DNA from: Powellomyces hirtus
Taxonomy: Eukaryota > Chytridiomycota > Chytridiomycetes > Spizellomycetales > Powellomycetaceae
Assembly (NCBI GenBank): GCA_025526995.1
Contig: JAHLKG010000012.1
Coordinates: forward strand, 766,417-830,416
Length of the DNA: 64,000 nt
Direction of reading: 5' to 3'
The notes beneath the pieces were generated by a model, which had not been told where the DNA came from, did no database searches, and saw nothing but the letters and a program-made list of their open reading frames with translations. Shown here in pieces: positions 52,983 through 64,000 of this stretch (the stretch's first letter is position 1; each line of letters begins with the position of its first letter). The translations under genes were made by a program, and so were the position numbers.

Positions 52983-54185
52983 ATGGACTTCCAAACGCGA
53001 CTTCAACCCGACAAGGCTTCGAGTGCACCTAGCTGGGTCTTCCGAGTCAAGATGGGTACCAAGCCAATTATAGCCCTTCTAGATACTGGTTGCAATACGA
53101 TGGTTGTTCAAGACCGCATCGCTAGCAAACGAAAACTCGAGAAAAGAGCTCTCGACAAACCATATGATATCGATACCGCCGGCGCCAGTCAAACCATTCG
53201 AATCACCTCCCTCACAACTCAACCAATCCAAATCTTTAATGATGCTTCGCAAGATTACAATCCCGTTGCCTCGTTCCACTTTGAGATTGCGCCTATTGGA
53301 ATCCCGCTCATCTTGGGACTTCCATTCTTTGAAGTGATTGGTAGTTTCACATGTGTTGCTGTCGAGCAACCACACCGCATCCTGTTTACTTTAGATGGAA
53401 AAGCTTTCAATTGTTCATCTCTTCCATCCAAGCGGCACGCTCAGAGTCCCGATTCATTCGGCAAGAAGGCTCAAACGTTCACCATTCACGGAGCTGCTAA
53501 AAGCGTTAAGCGTGAACAACAGAAGCCCTTCCAGGGTATTGCCGCTATCTCGACGAGACGATTCAATAAACAACTTCGACATAAGCAATATCAAGAAGCC
53601 TTCGCAGTCCATATACGCCCTACTACGAAAGATAACAAGGCTGATACTGATCCTTCTTGGCCTAAATTCCTTGACTCGATCCTCCAACGATTCAAAGATA
53701 CTCTCTTCAAGGAAACCGATGAGTTACCTCCTGATTGCGGCGATGATAACTTCCGTATCGACATCATCCCCGGATCGAAACCGGTCTTCCAGGCATTACG
53801 TCCTATATCACAAGATCAACTGAGCGAATTAAGGAAACAACTAGATCACCTCCTCTCAAAAGGATGGATTCAACATTCGAAATCACCATGGGGAGCATCA
53901 GTGGTCTTCGCTGTCAAGAAAACGGGTGGAATTCGCGTCTGTTGGGACTATCGTGGACTGAATGCCGTCACAATCAAGGACCGCACTCCACTCCCCAATC
54001 TTCGAGAAATGCGTAACCAGCTTCTCGGCGCCCGCCTCTATACGCTCATTGATTTGAAGCACGCATACCATCGACTGCTCATCGCTACGGAAGATCGCAA
54101 GAAAACGGCCATCCGTACAAGATTTGGACTTTTCGAATATGTTGTCATGCCCTTTGGGCTTTGCAATGCACCTGGCGCCTTTCAA
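52983..54185 (+). pseudogene. Gypsy pol, first half: protease and N-terminal reverse transcriptase
   Basis: Open from 52983. The aspartic protease motif (ALLDTGCNTMVV) and LILGLPFFE are followed by the reverse transcriptase fingers (LDHLLSKGWIQHSKSPWGAS; VCWDYRGLNAVTIKDRTPLP; YTLIDLKHAYHRLLI; FEYVVMPFGLCNAPGAFQ). The frame is cut in the TTTCAA codons by the copia insertion at 54186 and resumes at 61612. Up to this point no stop codon is present in pol. Confidence 0.85.
54180..54185. repeat. Target-site duplication, left copy (TTTCAA)
   Basis: TTTCAA lies immediately before the TGTTGGGATA start of the copia LTR and is repeated at 61612-61617 after the 3' LTR. Counted as 5 or 6 bp depending on the exact LTR end. 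Excising the element would join GAFQ to RLMNQVL of the gypsy reverse transcriptase. Confidence 0.85.
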
Positions 54186-54687
54186 TGTTGGGATACCAAG
54201 GAGCTCCGGCCGGTCACTCAGAAGCCTTTATTCCTTTGCTTCTATTCTTCTACTTTGGACACTATCGTACTGTGCCATCCACGATTCTTTGGACGGTACA
54301 TGGCTATTTTCATCACTCTGCTACCTACGAACTGTGCCACCTACACGTCTTAAGTGGCACACGGTTCCATGATTAATCCTCTACCACCACGCGTCTTTGG
54401 TGGCACGGTCCCCACTTGGTTCCCATTGTTCTCTTGCATTGTGACATTAGGCCCCTTACGTTCCTTTCATTTGCACGGCTCCTTCATTTCCATTGTTCAA
54501 GAGCCGCTGCTGTCTTCACCCATTTTACTCTTAAGCCCGGGGGCTCTTTACTCCCGCCCCTTGCTCTGAGAGAGATTTATGAAAGACTTGTTATACTATC
54601 GGCAATACACTACCTTTTGCTCTTTGCTACTTGCACCTTTAAGCTTGGCCGTCTAAGCGATTACCCTCCAGCGCACCAACTTGCAAC
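54186..54687 (+). repeat. 5' LTR of the copia element
   Basis: 502 bp from TGTTGGGATA to CTTGCAAC. Compared by eye with 61110-61611 it has the same length and two base differences (near 54212, CCGGCC versus CCGGCG; near 54678, CACCAAC versus CACCGAC). Confidence 0.93.
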
Positions 54688-54700
54688 TGGTTATGAGCCC
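54688..54700 (+). other. Primer-binding site of the copia element
   Basis: TGGTTATGAGCCC directly follows the 5' LTR. The TGG start fits the CCA end of a priming tRNA; the ATGAGCCC part resembles internal Met-tRNA complementarity in copia elements. The tRNA identity is inferred. Confidence 0.55.
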
Positions 54701-54842
54701 TGCTCCTGGCGACCTAGCTACTTTCGCTCAGTACGCATTCGAGCACCCTACACGTGCTTTGCCTTTAGCAGCTTTCACCTTTACACTCTCCCTTCTACCT
54801 TCGGTCACCCACCTCATCTACCAACCCACCTACTACTTCAAT

Positions 54843-56621
54843 ATGGCGGACACCTCAGAGGATGGAGATCGGAATCTAGAAGATTGGGTCAGGGATAATA
54901 AATATCGACTTCCTGATCCAGTGCGTCCACCTACCGTCAAGCGGGCAGATCCTTTGGAAGGACCTTCCTCCCCCAGAGGAGAACGTGCAGCTACTTTCAC
55001 TGACAAGGGAAAGGCATCTGCTGCCGATCCTCAACCCTCTGTACCCCTACCTGACGAACGGCATGCCGCACATGCGACTGGTGATGCTGAAGAACCTGAT
55101 CATCCATCATCCAGTTCTGAGGGTGACCCGTCCGAACCAAGCGATCCCCAGGACACTGCTTCTGAGGGGGAACCTCCCCGTTGGGCAATCCGCATGGCTA
55201 AGGACATCAACACACTCAAAAAGGCTTTCAGTATCCAACGTGAAATCACTGACGGTCTTTGGACAGCCCTCATTGAGACCCACGACTTTATTGAAACGGT
55301 CATGTCTCCTATGATGAGGGGCACTTCTCCAACTAAAGCGCCGGAGGAGGAACCTAACCGTGCCATACAGCATGAGGGCAGCACTTATCCCTTAGCTGAG
55401 CCCATGCATTCGGCCCGTCCGCACGAACGCCTTAGCGTTGTCAGCCCTACACCCTTAGCTGTACCCGCACCTATGTTTCGTGAAGAGACTACTAGACCCG
55501 CAAGTCCGACGACTAGTAGCTATCTCGCCCATGTGGGTCCACCCCTGTCTACTGCAAGTCAGGATGACCCCAATGCCATCAAAGCTATGATCGCTTCTTT
55601 TTCCAAGAACCTGAAGAACTTCTCTGGACGCAACAACAGTGGCCAACCTGACTATCAGAGTCTCTTTGACTATATCCGTGCGTTCAACAACTACTTTTCA
55701 GTTGCCCAGCTCAGTGACGCCAATCAAGTACTCCTGGCTGTCTCTTATCTGACTGGCAAAGCGGCTCAACGTTACCAATCCTACCAATTGGCAATGAATG
55801 CTGGCACCGAACCTTTGATTGCGACTTGGGAACAACTACAGACTTACCTCAAGAAAGCCCACTGCCCTATCGATCATCAGGACGTCATCCTTGAAAAGTT
55901 CTATAATCTTAAACAGGGGAAGCGCTCAGTGGATCAGCTTAACAAGGCATTTCTGGATCTGCGGATCCAACTCCCTCGTCCTCTCACCTCTGAAGAAGAA
56001 CGCAATTTCTACAAGAGGGCCCTTGATCCCCATTACCTTCTGTCAATCACGGCTGGCAATACCGATCGTCAGCTTAGTCTGGCCGAACTTCAAACTACTG
56101 CCTTAAGATTGGAGGCTTTAAACAAACGGATCAATCAGTCGGACTCATCATCTTCTTCAGCCCTTCAGTCTGGCAACAAGAAGAAACAGAAGTCATCTCC
56201 AGCTGCCAATACTGCACCTGTGCCGACTACCCCTTCTGTCGCAGCTCCTGCCACGGCTGAGTCTCCTAAGAAACCTTCTAAACGGGACGCTATTCCAGTC
56301 AAGGCAAATGTGACTTGTCCCTTTTGCTCTGCTACCGGTAAACACAACTATTGGGATTGCCCTAGAGCCACAGACTCCCAAAAGCAAGCCGAACGCAAAA
56401 AGCGCAAATTGGAATACCACCAGAAGCAACTGGCCTCCGCTAATGCAAAGCATTTAGAGCAGCCTCTAATGGCAAACTCAAATGGGTGGTTGATTACGGC
56501 GCCTCTGACCACATGTGCTATCAGGAATCCGCCTTCCTACACCTCAAGCCCATTACCCACACTGTGGAAGTGGCTAACGGTGTTATTGTTGACGCTATTG
56601 GCCTTGGAGACATTTCAGTGA
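54843..56621 (+). CDS. Copia-element Gag
   Basis: 592 codons from ATG 54843 (MADTSEDGDRN); the frame is open further upstream into the LTR, but this is the first ATG beyond the primer-binding site. An acidic/Pro-rich N-terminus precedes a capsid region (FSKNLKNFSGRNNSGQPDYQ; FDYIRAFNNYFSVAQLSD; WEQLQTYLKKAHCPIDHQD; KGKRSVDQLNKAFLDLRIQL-like helices) and a basic Ser-rich linker. A zinc knuckle follows with unusual spacing (CPFCSATGKHNYWDC, CX2CX5HX4C rather than CX4H). The stop is at 56619-56621. It overlaps pol, which lies in the -1 frame. Confidence 0.85.
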   Translation: MADTSEDGDRNLEDWVRDNKYRLPDPVRPPTVKRADPLEGPSSPRGERAATFTDKGKASAADPQPSVPLPDERHAAHATGDAEEPDHPSSSSEGDPSEPSDPQDTASEGEPPRWAIRMAKDINTLKKAFSIQREITDGLWTALIETHDFIETVMSPMMRGTSPTKAPEEEPNRAIQHEGSTYPLAEPMHSARPHERLSVVSPTPLAVPAPMFREETTRPASPTTSSYLAHVGPPLSTASQDDPNAIKAMIASFSKNLKNFSGRNNSGQPDYQSLFDYIRAFNNYFSVAQLSDANQVLLAVSYLTGKAAQRYQSYQLAMNAGTEPLIATWEQLQTYLKKAHCPIDHQDVILEKFYNLKQGKRSVDQLNKAFLDLRIQLPRPLTSEEERNFYKRALDPHYLLSITAGNTDRQLSLAELQTTALRLEALNKRINQSDSSSSSALQSGNKKKQKSSPAANTAPVPTTPSVAAPATAESPKKPSKRDAIPVKANVTCPFCSATGKHNYWDCPRATDSQKQAERKKRKLEYHQKQLASANAKHLEQPLMANSNGWLITAPLTTCAIRNPPSYTSSPLPTLWKWLTVLLLTLLALETFQ

Positions 56622-59600
56622 CATATCAAGGACATGGACTGATCATCCGGGACGTACTTTTCGTTCCATCCTTTCGCCACAACCTACTCTCTGAGCCTAC
56701 TTTGTCAAAGCGGGGAATCAATCTTTCCTTCAAGCGTACCCATTGTTCTATGGACCTACCAGACGGAATTTCTCTTACCATCCCCCGCACACCATCCGGT
56801 CAATTGCCCTTCACCTGCAAACTTAGAACGGCTGCACCGGCCTCCAGCTTGGCACTGGCTACTGGGGCTCCCACTATCCTCTCTTTGGGAGACTATCTCC
56901 TTTGGCATGCTCGACTTGGTCATCCTTCCTACAACCGCTTTAAAGAGCTGGCCACCGCTTTACCTCTTGCCTTCACTTTACCGCCTTCAGACGCCATCCC
57001 TCTTTGTGCTGAATGTGCTGTCGGCAAGGGCCATAGAGTGGCCAAACCCAAAGTCAACCCCACCATCTATCCTGACGATTCCGGCCTGATCCACGTTGAT
57101 CTCTTTGGCCCGGTTTCAACTCCTTCTCTGTCAGGAGCTATCTATTGTCTGGTTATTCTTGACCAAGACACACGTTATTCCAAGAGATACTTCTTAAAGG
57201 ACAAGTCGGCCCATACTGTTCATACCTGCCTATTGGATTATGCTGCCCTCTACAAGACCCAACGTGGCTACCCTATTAAACAAGCCCACACGGATCAAGG
57301 CTCTGAATTCCTCAACGATATAATTCAGGGTTGGAGTGCTTCCCAAGGCATCATCTGGAACACCACGGCTGCTTATTCTTCCTTCCAAAATCCGGTTGAA
57401 CGTACTCATCGTACCCTTGCGGACATGGGACGTACACTGCTCCATGCAGCTCATTTCACTCTGGATTTTTGGGCTGAAGCTTGGAATACCGCAAACTATC
57501 TACGTAACCGTCTACCGGCCCGTGGATATACCAAAACACCCTTTGAAGCTTGGACCGGCATCAAACCTAAGCTGGACCACCTCAAACTCATTGGGTGCAC
57601 TGCCTATGTAACACCGGTTCCTATGAAGAACAAACTCCTTCCACGTTCATGGACTGGCGTTCTTGTTGGCTATGGCCTTTCCTCACCTACCTATCGTATT
57701 TGGAATCCGGCCACCTCTTCCATTGTGGAAACCCGCGACGTCCGCTTTGATGAATCTAAACTATTCTGGGACGCCACTCTTTCCTTGGATCAACTCCAAG
57801 ACTTCACAGTGGCCGACCTTCCCATTGACAATCCCACTGGAAATGACCTCCCCACGTCTGGCTCTGCCGGCAGCTCTTCTGACGAATCTTCCTTATCTGA
57901 GGACGAGTATGAAGTGGAGAAGATCATGCAACATCGCCACCGTCGTGGCAAGCTCCAGTTCTACATCAAATGGAAAGGTTACCCGTCTTCTGACAACACT
58001 TGGGAAGATAAAGATCGGCTTGATCATTGTCACGAACTTCTCAATCAATATCTTGAGGACAATGACTTGGGCAACTCATCACGCACCCGACGCACCCATG
58101 CCTTCCAGACATCTACTGCTACGTCTGAAGCCACTCCTGTGCCTTGCGATTACGATGTACCCAATACTCTCAAGCAGGCCCTTGCTTCTCCCCACCGTGT
58201 CTCCTGGGAAGCCGCCATGCAAACCGAACTTGACTCCCTGACCATTAACAACACCTGGTCAGTTGTTGACCGTCCAGCACCTCCCACCAACGTTGTGGAT
58301 TCCCGCTGGGTCTTTGCACTCAAACGCAATGTGGACGGTACTATCAACAAATTCAAAGCTCGCCTTGTAGCTAAGGGTTTTACCCAACGCCATGGCCTGG
58401 ACTACCAAGACACTTATGCTCCTGTTGTGGGCTGGCCGGCTCTGCGCCTCTTTCTTGCCTTATGTGCGCAGATGGGCCTAGACGCTCATCAACTGGATGT
58501 AGTCACTGCCTATCTCAATGGGCTTATCGACTTTATCATCTACATGGAACTTCCACCCGGCCCATTACGTTCTGCACACAAAGTGGCCTTACTCAACCGA
58601 AGTCTCTATGGTCTCAAGCAAGCCGGTAAACTCTGGAACGATGACATCGATAGTTTCCTTACTACTGAACTTGGCTTTATGCCTTGTACCGGCGAACTTT
58701 GCCTCTACCACAAGCTGGTGGATGGACATCCTATCTTCCTCGTCTTATATGTGGACGATATCATTGTGGCTGCTCCCCGCACTCAGCCTAACCTCCTCAC
58801 GGATCTCAAGGCCAGTCTCTGCACCAAATATAAGATGACTGATGCGGGCAGGCTTTCATACATCTTGGGAATCCGGGTTACTTGGCATCTTGACAGTTCT
58901 ATCTCTTTGGATCAAGAACGTTACATCAAGGACTCCCTCACCCAATTTAACATGGCGGATTGCAATCCTTCTCTCCTGCCCATGGATCCCAACTTACGTT
59001 TATATGACACTGACAATACTGGCCCTCCTATTGATGTCAAATTTTACCAGACTGCTATCGGCACTTTACTCTACGCTTCTGTCTGTACCCGCCCTGACAT
59101 TGCTGCTTCTGTGGGCCTCCTAGCACGTCACATCTCCTGTCCACGCAAAGCTCATTGGACAGCGGTTCAACGTATCCTCAAGTATCTTTGGGACACTTCA
59201 CGTCTTGCTCTGACATACAAGGCATCCGATACTACAGCTCTCCATTGCTATACGGATGCTGATTGGGCTTCTGATCCCAATACCCGCCATTCCACTTCCG
59301 GCTACTGTTTTCTCTTATCAGGAGCCGTCATCCATTGGCGATCTACCAAGCAGACCTGCATTGCTCTCTCTTCTACTGAGTCTGAGTACATAGCTGCTGC
59401 TACTGCTGGGCAAGAAACTCTCTGGTTCTCACGTCTCATGGCCCAAATCCGTCCAGACCTTCCCAAGGCTCCAACTATTGTCCATATGGACAGTGCTAGT
59501 GCACGTCTATTGGCTCACCGGGATACAAATTCCAGACGCACCAAACACATTGACATACGCTACCACGCCATTCGGGACTGGATTCATCAGGAAGAACTTA

Positions 59601-59719
59601 TCCTACAACCAATTGCCGGCACAGACAACTTGGCTGACGTCTTCACTAAAGCCATTGGCAATCCACGATTCACGGCTTTTCGGGATCAACTTGGACTATC
59701 TTTATTGTCTATCGCATGA
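56444..59719 (+). CDS. Copia-element Pol with protease, integrase, chromodomain, reverse transcriptase and RNase H
   Basis: Open in the -1 frame relative to gag from just after TAA at 56441-56443, so expression needs frameshifting; no classical slippery heptamer is obvious in the 178-nt overlap. Protease motif WVVDYGASDHM (Tyr where Ser/Thr is usual). Zinc-binding pre-integrase: LLWHARLGHP and CAECAVGKGH. Integrase catalytic residues: HVDLFGPV, AHTDQGSEF, NPVERTHRT. Chromodomain at about 57905-58068: YEVEKIMQHRHRRGKLQF, IKWKGYPSSDNTWE, with all three aromatic cage residues. Reverse transcriptase: WVFALKRNVDGTINKFKARL, QLDVVTAYLNG, LYVDDIIVAA. RNase H: YTDADWASDP, LSSTESEYIAAA, KHIDIRYHAIRD. 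Ends at 59719. No internal stop. The chromodomain between integrase and reverse transcriptase is not part of the usual copia plan. Confidence 0.93.
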   Translation, partial: CKAFRAASNGKLKWVVDYGASDHMCYQESAFLHLKPITHTVEVANGVIVDAIGLGDISVTYQGHGLIIRDVLFVPSFRHNLLSEPTLSKRGINLSFKRTHCSMDLPDGISLTIPRTPSGQLPFTCKLRTAAPASSLALATGAPTILSLGDYLLWHARLGHPSYNRFKELATALPLAFTLPPSDAIPLCAECAVGKGHRVAKPKVNPTIYPDDSGLIHVDLFGPVSTPSLSGAIYCLVILDQDTRYSKRYFLKDKSAHTVHTCLLDYAALYKTQRGYPIKQAHTDQGSEFLNDIIQGWSASQGIIWNTTAAYSSFQNPVERTHRTLADMGRTLLHAAHFTLDFWAEAWNTANYLRNRLPARGYTKTPFEAWTGIKPKLDHLKLIGCTAYVTPVPMKNKLLPRSWTGVLVGYGLSSPTYRIWNPATSSIVETRDVRFDESKLFWDATLSLDQLQDFTVADLPIDNPTGNDLPTSGSAGSSSDESSLSEDEYEVEKIMQHRHRRGKLQFYIKWKGYPSSDNTWEDKDRLDHCHELLNQYLEDNDLGNSSRTRRTHAFQTSTATSEATPVPCDYDVPNTLKQALASPHRVSWEAAMQTELDSLTINNTWSVVDRPAPPTNVVDSRWVFALKRNVDGTINKFKARLVAKGFTQRHGLDYQDTYAPVVGWPALRLFLALCAQMGLDAHQLDVVTAYLNGLIDFIIYMELPPGPLRSAHKVALLNRSLYGLKQAGKLWNDDIDSFLTTELGFMPCTGELCLYHKLVDGHPIFLVLYVDDIIVAAPRTQPNLLTDLKASLCTKYKMTDAGRLSYILGIRVTWHLDSSISLDQERYIKDSLTQFNMADCNPSLLPMDPNLRLYDTDNTGPPIDVKFYQTAIGTLLYASVCTRPDIAASVGLLARHISCPRKAHWTAVQRILKYLWDTSRLALTYKASDTTALHCYTDADWASDPNTRHSTSGYCFLLSGAVIHWRSTKQTCIALSSTESEYIAAATAGQETLWFSRLMAQIRPDLPKAPTIVHMDSASARLLAHRDTNSRRTKHIDIRYHAIRDWIHQEELILQPIAGTDNLADVFTKAIGNPRFTAFRDQLGLSLLSIA

Positions 59720-59737
59720 CTATATGGCAGTACCTAT

Positions 59738-60640
59738 CTATCTGGGCCTTCCATAACGCTCAATCGCCCTGCCAGTCGTCCCAGGCATCCCTATGACCCC
59801 CATGAATCTATCACCACCTTTACTGTTCACCGGTTCCGTTCCATGGATGTTCTTAGACGAAAAAGACCAGAGAACCCTATGCCTAAGTTGCACCTTCAGT
59901 GCATACTCCGGGTATCGGAATATCCAATCCCCAATCGTTCCTTCATCTTCGACACAGTATCCTATCGTCCAGGGTTGCATATCCCTATTGGTATGATCGG
60001 AAATCTCGAAGTTCTTGGCCAGGAACAAAGGGAAAGTCGGCATGTAGATGTTCAGTGTCTGCGTCAAGCCTTCCCACTGCTCCGGATGATGAACTCTTCC
60101 CAATGTCATCACCCTCTGAGCTACCCTTTTTCCTTCTCTCTTTCGGATCTCTGCTTCATTGTCGGGAGCACGGTACTGGATCTTAAGACTATACTCCGAT
60201 GTGGCCTGTGCCGCAAAATTGAGTGTGTCTCCACTCCTAGCCCCGATCCCAACCATGAGGCCTTTCATGATCTTGCCCTTTCCTCTGGGCATCGGTCTGT
60301 AGCTTTCAGATGCTGCTTTAGCGTCTGCCAGCTGAGCTGCAGCAACTTCCATCGTACCGGCATCGGAACTGGCTACCAACACGGTTTCTTCTGTCTCTTC
60401 ATCCTTGACAATCACCGTTTCGTTATCAGCCAGCACCAGGACCAGAGTTTCCGATTCAGCATTCTTCTTCCTAATCAGAACTCGACTTGTGCGTCCCGTT
60501 TCGATCCGTTTTGTTTCTTCACGTCCGAGGGTCTCCATCTGCTTCTTGACCCCGCCTCGTTTCTTGAAACCGTTGGGCTTGGACATCTTGACTTGGCCGA
60601 TTTTCTGATTTTCCATTTTCGACTTGGGATGGACTTCCAA
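59738..60640 (-). CDS. Antisense ORF in the copia element, 2-oxoglutarate/Fe(II) dioxygenase-like
   Basis: 300 codons on the minus strand between pol and the 3' LTR, from ATG 60638-60640. The N-terminal 50 residues are strongly basic (FKKRGGVKKQ; RKK), as in a nuclear or DNA-binding tail. The C-terminal half reads SDHTNRDMQPWTIGYCV, then GDWIFRYPEYALKVQLRHRV, then NIHGTEPVNSKGGDRFMGVI. This follows the double-stranded beta-helix pattern of 2OG/Fe(II) dioxygenases: HxD (here H-T-N), a Gly/aromatic strand, distal His before a Gly-x-x-Pro-Val turn, and Arg for 2OG. The closest pattern I know is the TET/JBP-like proteins found near fungal transposons. The overlapping plus-strand frame is rich in Ser/Phe/His as expected of an antisense shadow. 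Asn at the metal position may mean loss of activity. Family by motif only. Confidence 0.6.
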   Translation of the reverse strand: MEVHPKSKMENQKIGQVKMSKPNGFKKRGGVKKQMETLGREETKRIETGRTSRVLIRKKNAESETLVLVLADNETVIVKDEETEETVLVASSDAGTMEVAAAQLADAKAASESYRPMPRGKGKIMKGLMVGIGARSGDTLNFAAQATSEYSLKIQYRAPDNEAEIRKREGKRVAQRVMTLGRVHHPEQWEGLTQTLNIYMPTFPLFLAKNFEISDHTNRDMQPWTIGYCVEDEGTIGDWIFRYPEYALKVQLRHRVLWSFSSKNIHGTEPVNSKGGDRFMGVIGMPGTTGRAIERYGRPR

Positions 60641-60959
60641 TTTCCTCAGGACTCTTTTGGAGGGGGCGGCAGTGCCCCTTCCTCCTTTTATATCCGGGAA
60701 TCATTCTTCCATCACCTTCTATCGGCTTCCGTCACACAGTTCCATTTTTATTTCGACAAAAGACTTAGTGAAGGTGGTCTCCTCCTGTTACAAGCTCTGG
60801 ATCCAGATGCGATTTCAACTGCATCTCCCACTAGTTCCGCTCCCCACTTGACACCCGGAACTGGATCTGGTTTTCCATTGCAACAGGACGTGGGATTAAA
60901 GGACAAGTCCCCGACACCCCTGCTACCTTCAGAATTCCGAAAAATTCATCGGGCCCCTC

Positions 60960-61040
60960 AATTACAGCTAGCGGGAATTGAACCTGCGGTTCCATGCCTG
61001 CGTCCCTGCGTCAACCCAGTGCACTAAGTCTCAACCATCC
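60960..61040 (-). ncRNA. tRNA-like sequence with RNA polymerase III A and B boxes
   Basis: On the minus strand TGGTTGAGACTTAGTG (A-box-like) is followed about 35 nt later by GGTTCAATTCC (B box/T-loop). A partial T-stem forms (4 of 5 pairs), but I cannot pair an acceptor stem, so it is not a functional tRNA by eye. It could be a tRNA relic, a SINE-like head or a promoter upstream of the antisense ORF. Confidence 0.4.
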
Positions 61041-61096
61041 CGAAAACAAATTTCGTCTTGACCTTCGGAAGTTCCAATTACCTTTTCCCTTTGCTC

Positions 61097-61109
61097 CTTG
61101 GAGGGGGCG
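61097..61109 (+). other. Polypurine tract of the copia element
   Basis: TTGGAGGGGGCG lies directly before the 3' LTR start TGTTGGGATA, the usual place for plus-strand priming. Confidence 0.7.
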
Positions 61110-61611
61110 TGTTGGGATACCAAGGAGCTCCGGCGGGTCACTCAGAAGCCTTTATTCCTTTGCTTCTATTCTTCTACTTTGGACACTATCGTACTGTGCC
61201 ATCCACGATTCTTTGGACGGTACATGGCTATTTTCATCACTCTGCTACCTACGAACTGTGCCACCTACACGTCTTAAGTGGCACACGGTTCCATGATTAA
61301 TCCTCTACCACCACGCGTCTTTGGTGGCACGGTCCCCACTTGGTTCCCATTGTTCTCTTGCATTGTGACATTAGGCCCCTTACGTTCCTTTCATTTGCAC
61401 GGCTCCTTCATTTCCATTGTTCAAGAGCCGCTGCTGTCTTCACCCATTTTACTCTTAAGCCCGGGGGCTCTTTACTCCCGCCCCTTGCTCTGAGAGAGAT
61501 TTATGAAAGACTTGTTATACTATCGGCAATACACTACCTTTTGCTCTTTGCTACTTGCACCTTTAAGCTTGGCCGTCTAAGCGATTACCCTCCAGCGCAC
61601 CGACTTGCAAC
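61110..61611 (+). repeat. 3' LTR of the copia element
   Basis: 502 bp, same ends and length as the 5' LTR, followed by the right target duplication TTTCAA at 61612-61617 and resumption of the gypsy reverse transcriptase. Confidence 0.93.
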
Positions 61612-63757
61612 TTTCAACGGCTCATGAACCAAGTGCTAGGCGATCTCTACGACATCTGCGTCATCTGTTACCTCGACGACATCCTTATCTTCTCGCCCGA
61701 TCCCTCTACACATTGACAACACGTAGCTGAAGTCCTTCAGCGATTACAAGACCATTCGCTCTATGTTAACGCTGCCAAATGTCAATGGGGCCAAAAGGAA
61801 ATTAAATTCTGCGGCCACCTCTTCAGTGTCAATGGCATGCGGATTGCGGACAGCAAGGTCGCAGCCGTTCGGGATTGGCCAACCCCGCGAACCACAAGAC
61901 ATATCCGACAATTCCTTGGGTTGACAAACTACTTTCTTGACTACATCAAACGGTATGCTGAAATCGCTGCGCCACTATCAGCTTTGCAAGGCATCAAAAG
62001 CGCTTTCGAATGGACGGCCAAGGAGCAAAAAGCCTTTGATGCTCTCAAGAATGCTATCACAAGCGCTCCAGTCCTAGCGACATTCAACCCCGATCATCCA
62101 ATCTATGTTCATACAGATTCATCTGGCTTTGCCATCTTGGGATGGCTAGGACAAACGGCCAATGGAGATTCTCTCCCTATGCCTTTACCGATCCATCGAG
62201 TACGAGCTATGGAGCAACTACCCAAGCTTCGTCCGATCCTTTTCTTTTCGCGCAAGATGAATGGAGCTGAAACCCGATATCCGGTACACGAGCAAGAACT
62301 ACTAGCCCTCGTGAAGTTTCTAAAGACAAACCGGTTCTACCTTATTAATCGGCCCTTCATCGCTCTCGTCGATCACCGATCACTTGTGCATCTGCAAACA
62401 CAACCACACCTGAGTAAACGCCAAGCAGGATGGGTGGAAACCTTACAAGAGTTCGACTTCTCATTTCAATATCTTCCCGGCCGATTCAATACAATCGCCG
62501 ATTTACTTTCGTGAAATCCCACATACGCACCACGATGCATTGAGTGTCAGAAACGATTGATGGTTACAGCATACATGAATACCAACGAGCATCCGTTCCC
62601 GACTACATTCGGATTCAAACGATGGAAACATGAGTTGCTCCAAGATGAATACGCGCTCCACATTACCCAAATGCTCGAAAAACTGGAGCACGAGCGGCCC
62701 GGTCGTTATCGCAGATTCGCCATACGATCCGATGGAATCATCACATACGAGGACGAACGACTTTACGTTCCTTATACGATAAGGCCACATGTTCTCCGAG
62801 AGTTCCACGATGAGCTTCCTAATGGCGGACATCAAGGGCCATTAGTCACTTATGCTAAGATGTTGCGTCGATACTTCTGGCCCAAGATGCAGCAAGACAT
62901 TCGCTCTTTTGTCCGCACCTGCGCCAAATGCCGCTCATTTTCGCGCCCACCACGTAATGGTCTCTTAAGGCCACTTCCCATACCATCGACGGTCAATCAC
63001 ACTCATGGGTTCGATCTTTTCGAGTTACCGCGACCTTGAGGAAGTCCCGAGCGTCCGTTTATCATATGCATTGTTGACTATTTATCAAGCCGAACGCACC
63101 TCGTCCCTGCGGAAAGCACTCTCTCAACAAACGAGTTAATGACCCTCATCTTAAGCCAAGTTTGGAAGCATACTGGCATACCTCTCCTCATCATATCAGA
63201 CCAAGAACCCAGGTTATTAGCAGACCTCTTCTCCGCCTTTTCCAAGTTAACTGGCGTCAAACACGAGTTCGCTACGGCGCGACATCAACAAACTGACGGC
63301 CGAGTAGAAAGAATGATCCAAGTTGCCAAATTTGTCACCCGCAAATACCTTGATTATAGTGGATCCAATTGGCGTGAATTCCTACCATTGGTCGAGTTCT
63401 GCCTCAATTCTATGCCTCGACGCCATCTCAATGGCCTCGCCCCCTTCGAAATTGAACTCAATCGAATGCCACGACCCCCAGGCTGGAACACTAATCCAGA
63501 ACAACTCGCCCAAATGACACCGCCAAATTGAGCTCTTATCTGTCTATACCAAGAACGAGCCGCGGACATCAATTTTACGGTCCAGCAAGCACTTCGTGAC
63601 GAACAAGATTGCTACGAGCAATACTTCAATCAAGGACGCACCCCCATAGCGTTCGAAGTAGGCAATCTTGTCGACCTCAATCGCGAACAACTGGCAATCA
63701 ACTTTGACCAAGTTAAACCCACCAATCTCACCCCCAAGTGGATCGGACCATTCACAA
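61612..63757 (+). pseudogene. Gypsy pol, second half: reverse transcriptase end, RNase H, integrase
   Basis: Continues the interrupted frame: RLMNQVLGDLYDICVICYLDD (catalytic YLDD), then TGA at 61714. Thumb and RNase H follow (CGHLFSVNGMRI; RQFLGLTNYFLDYI; VHTDSSGFAILGWLGQ; YPVHEQELLALV; FQYLPGRFNTIADLLS) up to TGA at 62512, where LSR is expected. The integrase has its zinc-binding HHCC (HDELPNGGHQG, CAKCRSF), TGA at 63037, and catalytic IVDYLS, IISDQEP and DGRVERMIQ, then TGA at 63529. The sequence ends at KWIGPFT next to telomere repeats. All other codons remain in one frame, so decay is by point mutation rather than indels. Confidence 0.88.
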
Positions 63758-64000
63758 GGGTTAGGGTTAGGGTTAGGGTTAGGGTTAGGGTTAGGGTTAG
63801 GGTTAGGGTTAGGGTTAGGGTTAGGGTTAGGGTTAGGGTTAGGGTTAGGGTTAGGGTTAGGGTTAGGGTTAGGGTTAGGGTTAGGGTTAGGGTTAGGGTT
63901 AGGGTTAGGGTTAGGGTTAGGGTTAGGGTTAGGGTTAGGGTTAGGGTTAGGGTTAGGGTTAGGGTTAGGGTTAGGGTTAGGGTTAGGGTTAGGGTTAGGG
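63758..64000 (+). repeat. Terminal telomere repeat (TTAGGG)n
   Basis: About 40 perfect TTAGGG units running to the end of the window with the G-rich strand 5' to 3' outward, as expected for the right end of a chromosome. It joins gypsy integrase sequence at ...CCATTCACAA/GGGTTAGGG. Confidence 0.97.

Follow-up and report, generated by a model that had tools for sequence, protein, structure and literature searches.

The 7.4 kb Ty1/copia long terminal repeat (LTR) retrotransposon described here carries, antisense to its gag and pol genes, an additional open reading frame (ORF) that is real and a gene, and that we are inclined to read as a captured, antisense-transcribed accessory gene for a 2-oxoglutarate (2OG) dioxygenase-like protein, likely oxidising a methyl mark against silencing. 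The element occupies positions 54186-61612 of a 64,000-nucleotide stretch (the window) of contig JAHLKG010000012.1 (C12 below) of the chytrid Powellomyces hirtus (Spizellomycetales; genome of 29.3 Mb), and was assigned on the basis of its LTR pair, its target-site duplication and an integrase located before the RVT_2 domain.

The frame spans 59738-60640 on the minus strand, contains 300 open codons counted from a TTG and 320 from stop to stop, and has the pol stop codon (59719) on one side and the 3' LTR (61110-61612) on the other. It is thus present as described in a sequence-only reading of the window, and the motifs quoted there (SDHTNRD, PWTIGYCV, NIHGTEPV and DRF) are all found in its translation, the N-terminus of which is basic as judged by eye. 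An open frame of at least 320 codons was encountered, in any of the six frames, in 1 of 2000 (0.05%) first-order Markov sequences of 59720-61109. The first conserved ATG, at 60616, is the likely start, and the following cassette can be delineated:

59738..60616, minus strand: antisense accessory ORF of 292 amino acids, from ATG (60616) to TAG (59738), based on the frame and its homologues
60686..60692, minus strand: TATAAAA, 76 nucleotides upstream of the ATG, the TATA box being kept in 7 of 8 copies covering the site
59701..59706, minus strand: AATAAA, about 32 nucleotides past the stop codon and within the end of pol, kept in 6 of 7 covering copies

Seven of 8 copies have the conserved ATG and all 7 of 7 the stop codon; a copy whose LTR likeness to the window element has dropped to 84% still retains both TATA box and ATG. 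TATAAA and AATAAA occur jointly at such distances at 0.06% of 17,772 sampled window positions.

A protein-level search of the genome ties the ORF to two non-copia P. hirtus proteins, hereafter P0001 and P0002. P0002 (656 amino acids) is an annotated gene, present whole at one locus, whose coding sequence is split by introns (by eye); a broken piece at C17:603899-604063 (L057), containing one TAA and 39% identical to the P0002 core exon, is a possible further member of the family. P0001 (607 amino acids) is found three times in the genome (L053, C11:434724; L054, C11:4701; L055, C23:561119), in repeats that share 95-98% identity across 5 kb or more. The core alignments within the three branches lie 20-24 standard deviations over shuffles, and along the full alignment the P0001 and P0002 branches share 21-25% identity with the ORF. 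One family is represented in P. hirtus by three branches, namely the copia ORF, the spliced host gene P0002 and the repeated P0001.

Transposase-like ORFs adjoin P0001 in opposite orientation, which is in line with the tie of fungal TET/JBP-type dioxygenases to DNA transposons mentioned in the sequence-only reading. By eye these ORFs resemble EnSpm/Plavaka-type transposases (C-x2-C, H-x3-H), a tentative label; none had a Pfam match over the cut-off, and the Plavaka assignment was set aside, PF18759 matches being present on contig C6 only. The ends of the P0001-carrying repeat were looked for and not found. One copia copy (L043, C23:549096-556589) sits inside this repeat, in its transposase-like part, with a GTTAT duplication recognised by eye.

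The homologues match the antisense frame. A longer sense frame overlaps the ORF (59843-61027, plus strand; 394 amino acids from the start codon, 435 codons stop to stop); across the ORF span it contains 0-1 stops in C12, C23, C1 and C26 and 3 in C6 (copies being named by their contigs), and it has no Pfam match. A spurious antisense frame, or an antisense RNA only, regulating the element, would agree with the length of the opposite frame and with the capacity of LTR-element antisense transcripts to act as RNA (PMC7264820). We nevertheless regard this explanation as very improbable, as the homology at the protein level, with P0001 and with an annotated gene that is spliced, largely refutes it.

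Eleven copies of the family, including that of the window, hold the ORF whole or in part, a count that leaves out a 32-residue match at C12:310525. In ten of them pol or LTR sequence adjoins the ORF in the same arrangement as in the window, the C8 copy being a loose fragment. The ORF is full-length and fully open in C12, C23 and C1 (95-100% identity), contains stops or frameshifts in C6, C26, C8 and C18, and is partial in C9, C10, C12b and C32. Absence of the ORF from other copies of the element was named in the sequence-only reading as a refutation, but the ORF is conserved, being present in 5 of 5 close pol copies (79% or more) examined on their 3' side. These belong to six such copies, the sixth being C18:552637, among 85 scored of 761 candidates, and the count is confined to close copies of pol, as distinct from the copia families with 40-50% pol identity.

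Among the three full-length copies the ratio of nonsynonymous to synonymous substitution rates (dN/dS) is 0.27-0.36. Their 38 single-copy changes comprise 20 nonsynonymous and 18 synonymous changes and no stop, against a neutral expectation of 24.6, 12.0 and 1.4, respectively, under a model matched for base changes and for CpG context. The synonymous excess (P=0.029; P=0.011 jointly with the absence of stops) provides modest evidence of selection on the ORF. Pooled dN/dS over all copies (0.59 in the ORF frame versus 0.65-0.82 in the five others) says little; the pool includes fragment C12b, with values of 1.4-2.0 versus four copies and 0.6-1.0 versus three.

These data bear on whether the ORF could be passive cargo, that is, a host or transposon gene captured on a single occasion and propagated with the element, to which it would bring no benefit. 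The broken copies C6, C26, C8 and C18, the further fragments, the modest selection signal and the location of P0001 beside transposase-like ORFs, indicating that such genes move, would all be expected of such cargo. Survival of the TATA box and ATG in the copy with 84% LTR likeness, retention of the stop codon (7/7) and AATAAA (6/7), and the absence of stops in the three full-length copies argue against it, and we consider passive cargo a rather improbable account.

The reading as an accessory 2OG dioxygenase-like gene is carried by the following residues:

59987..59995, minus strand: HTN, residues 208-210, which is HTD in C23, C1 and C18
59843..59845, minus strand: His258, the second of the invariant His residues and, from the branch alignment, a candidate metal ligand
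59807..59809, minus strand: Arg270, candidate 2OG-binding Arg at H+12, from the alignment across branches

Over 111 core columns, 21 residues are identical across the C23 copy, the P0001 frame and the P0002 exon, and H208, D210 and H258 (window numbering) are the sole His or Asp residues among them; when the invariant residues were shuffled among their own positions, HxD...H arose in 0.9% of trials. The spacing between the two His residues is 50 in the ORF and 51 in P0002. 2OG oxygenases have a basic 2OG-binding residue 10-16 positions after the second His. The facial triad HxD/E...H is whole in P0001, P0002 and the C23 and C1 copies, and is incomplete in the window copy (HTN) and in the decayed C6 copy (HVN). 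We use the label 2OG-type because of this motif, its spacing and its conservation, and the iron/2OG layout noted in the sequence-only reading survives because the branch alignment leaves HxD...H as the only invariant His/Asp. The same reading had suspected HTN to be inactivating. Judged from the HTD of C23, C1 and C18, HTN in the window copy is a loss, and the codons (ACC-GAT in C23 and C1, ACC-AAT in the window copy) identify the loss of Asp as a CpG transition; owing to HTN, the window copy is probably catalytically dead.

Several observations weigh against a dioxygenase that erases a methyl mark. An insert in P0001 stretches the His-His spacing to 84, P0002 has M at H+12 with K at H+11 while P0001 has R, and the C18 copy has HTD but Tyr at the second His. 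No 2OG-family profile match at meaningful score was obtained in Pfam, PDB sequences or NCBIfam; in Pfam the top match, to Avl9, reaches E 0.014 and occurs in 2 of 7 family members; it is under its cut-off in the member shown and concerns the N-terminal part. Compared with the Tet_JBP-like family of P. hirtus introduced below, the ORF family scored at chance (Z -0.14), with low power as that profile is thin (four near-identical rows). The case for purifying selection, itself modest, is built on 38 changes, and 5-methylcytosine (5mC) is described as near-undetectable in early-diverging fungi generally (PMC13297926, a review).

Wider comparisons yielded few relatives. The ORF alone found no relatives among 1339 candidates from 5.8 billion protein sequences, the 7-row alignment retrieved only P0001 and P0002 from the same set (best 7998 candidates by shared words), and P0002 retrieved itself alone among 1380 candidates. 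Viral contigs contained no relative of the ORF family or of the Tet_JBP-like family, and genome contigs none of the ORF family. Pairwise comparison with part of E. coli K-12 AlkB was at chance, without an AlkB match in Pfam. Matches judged to be due to chance were those of phage tblastn searches, in which the Tet_JBP-like L059 core gave 4 records at E 0.8-6 and the P0002 core a single record at E 6, and, among PDB sequences, RipA (E 0.5), butyrophilin (E 1.1) and a light-harvesting protein against the P0002 exon (E 0.36). A PHROGs match to a single member of a family without known function (E 0.11) was also discarded, and deoxypodophyllotoxin synthase, a 2OG enzyme, matched the P0001 frame in PDB at E 1.1 over a span including the second His and was counted as no evidence. 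In the PHROGs search, the PDB search yielding butyrophilin, the genome-contig search and one viral-contig search, the alignment misplaced the HxD of P0001, the slice used starting at that motif; in one alignment the P0002 row was the genomic frame, its first residues being intron and its core exon.

The lack of any oxygenase at meaningful score in database or profile comparisons would suit a conserved accessory protein of unrelated fold, in which HxD...H is coincidental or forms another metal site, as would the Arg that is not retained in P0002 and the 0.9% of shuffles that do give HxD...H. Such a coincidence sits poorly with H208, D210 and H258 being the sole invariant His/Asp among branches 21-25% identical to the ORF, and we judge the explanation unlikely.

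As for the family to which the putative dioxygenase may belong, no member of the ORF family matched the TET/JBP model PF12851, a genome scan with which gave other ORFs only; with PF20515 no match was obtained anywhere in the genome, the controls being equally without match. The dioxygenase layout proposed in the sequence-only reading stands as far as HxD...H is kept across three branches, and finds no Pfam or profile match to TET/JBP, so that the earlier interpretation as a whole is partly supported. Membership of the ORF family in TET/JBP is a hypothesis. PE-type TET proteins were linked to known TETs by HHpred only at E 1.4 and 19 (PMC12730594), showing that relatives of this kind can escape sequence comparison, which is not evidence for the ORF family.

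The scan with PF12851 picked up a repeated P. hirtus ORF with HRD...H...R (L058-L061; C23:199941, C6:241723, C1:161609 and C26:73228), which matches Tet_JBP at 4e-4, below the Pfam cut-off, and whose copies are 92-97% identical to L059. It is possibly another mobile TET/JBP-like gene. It shares with the antisense ORF the 50-residue His-His spacing and a common genome, but beyond this spacing it is without sequence similarity to the ORF family.

With regard to a methylation setting, CpG to TpG/CpA changes outpace other C>T changes 2.4- to 6.2-fold in 10 of 10 element copies, for example L045, L046 and L048 (with the window copy as reference; the count leaves out L055, a 90-nucleotide LTR end without such changes), and at least 3-fold in 8 of 10. 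This faster CpG decay is a sign of cytosine methylation in this chytrid, and the genome contains 14 DNA_methylase matches that exceed the cut-off, each exon or piece being counted separately. P. hirtus is moreover listed among the chytrids with over 1% N6-methyladenine (6mA; PMC11258239), implying that a target mark exists. CpG decay, DNA_methylase matches and reported 6mA lend circumstantial support to an eraser role, and either 5mC or 6mA could be the target.

The cassette, its homology, its persistence among copies and the conservation of HxD...H are established by these data, whereas fold, activity, substrate, transcription and benefit are inferred in the following manner. The copia family would have captured an accessory gene whose own promoter drives transcription against gag-pol, and the antisense promoter would let the enzyme be expressed separately from the LTR-driven transcript. 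The encoded protein would be a nuclear-type Fe(II)/2-oxoglutarate dioxygenase-like enzyme, its most likely reaction being the oxidation of a methyl mark in DNA (5mC or 6mA) at element copies or in their vicinity, thereby relieving host silencing; the chromodomain of the integrase would direct new insertions to marked chromatin.

A 2OG demethylase, candidate or proven, encoded by an additional ORF of an LTR element has a precedent in 25 kb orchid Ty3/Gypsy elements, which carry an AlkB-type 2OG-dependent dioxygenase (2-ODD) ORF with N6-methyladenosine (m6A) RNA activity in vitro (PMC9289625); the P. hirtus element differs in being copia and 7.4 kb long, with an antisense ORF for which no AlkB similarity was found. 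The m6A demethylase activity of the orchid ORF (PMC9289625) would favour a 2OG-Fe(II) oxygenase with another substrate, be it an RNA demethylase or a protein/histone hydroxylase acting on element RNA or chromatin, and the HxD...H core alone does not reveal the substrate. We assign a low probability to this alternative.

Fungal DNA transposons carry TET/JBP genes, and a survey reporting them states that no retrotransposon was found with such a gene and offers a possible reason (Kojima 2025, PMC12730594); the word chytrid is absent from its main text. The P. hirtus family resembles these transposons in a cargo with an HxD/E...H triad and in the transposase-like ORFs adjoining P0001, whereas the carrier in the window is an LTR retrotransposon and TET/JBP kinship is only hypothesised. 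Retrotransposons of dinoflagellates and charophytes captured cytosine methyltransferases (PMC5890265), likewise host DNA-methylation genes; those elements carry writers, whereas the P. hirtus element carries a candidate eraser.

In position and orientation the ORF is akin to the antisense ORFs between pol and 3' LTR of plant elements (aORF-3R; PMC7264820), as it lies in this interval, antisense, in most copies. An own upstream promoter was reported for the antisense ORF of maize Grande, of the 104 antisense ORFs of Retand, 72 code for a known domain, in most cases TRP28 (57), and Botrytis Boty is cited as having an antisense gene, brtn (PMC7264820, PMC11963269, PMC8365987). A 2020 review knows of no clear similarity between such antisense ORFs and other proteins (PMC7264820); the P. 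hirtus ORF differs from aORF-3R and Retand ORFs in having, besides a catalytic-type motif, homologues that lie outside the element.

Among the open-access papers listed, with most subscription journals outside this scope, no title or abstract opening reported a copia dioxygenase or a chytrid-retrotransposon TET/JBP. A first retrotransposon with a TET/JBP-like eraser, in which a chromodomain copia element would be reader plus eraser, its antisense gene oxidising 5mC or 6mA on the element's copies in a genome reported to be unusually rich in 6mA, and in which one enzyme family would be common, within a single chytrid, to an LTR retrotransposon, a DNA transposon and the host, is a tentative proposal that we ourselves hold to be doubtful. 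If true, a related eraser in a copia family would remove the limit to DNA transposons stated in the 2025 survey, unrelated kinds of elements would have captured the same enzyme within one genome, and the role of antisense ORFs after pol would become testable by enzyme assay; the value of the finding would be higher with fold and activity confirmed.

The remaining parts of the element, which is young (LTRs 99.6% identical), are as follows:

54181..54185, no strand: left target-site duplication TTCAA, identical to 61613-61617
54186..54688, plus strand: 5' LTR, 503 bp, 99.6% identity with 61110-61612
54681..56621, plus strand: gag ORF (PF19259, 9e-9; PF03732, 9e-8)
56486..59719, plus strand: copia pol ORF with Pfam matches to Pol_BBD, gag_pre-integrs, rve, SH3, Chromo and RVT_2 (2e-56)
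57908..58057, plus strand: chromodomain in pol, in the interval between integrase and reverse transcriptase (PF00385, 3.5e-17; pol residues 475-524)
61110..61612, plus strand: 3' LTR, 503 bp, from the LTR pair
61613..61617, no strand: right target-site duplication TTCAA, identical to the left copy

The chromodomain claimed for the element is hence located within pol; chromodomains are typical of gypsy chromoviruses. The gag of this copia element fits the Ty3_capsid and Retrotrans_gag models and not the copia gag model. Gypsy-type pol pieces, recognised by eye, flank the element at 52983-54353 and 61837-63531, pointing to a nested insertion, and a 12-nucleotide periodic repeat with Leu-Gly and Pro-Asn frames extends over 63697-64000, up to the end of the window.
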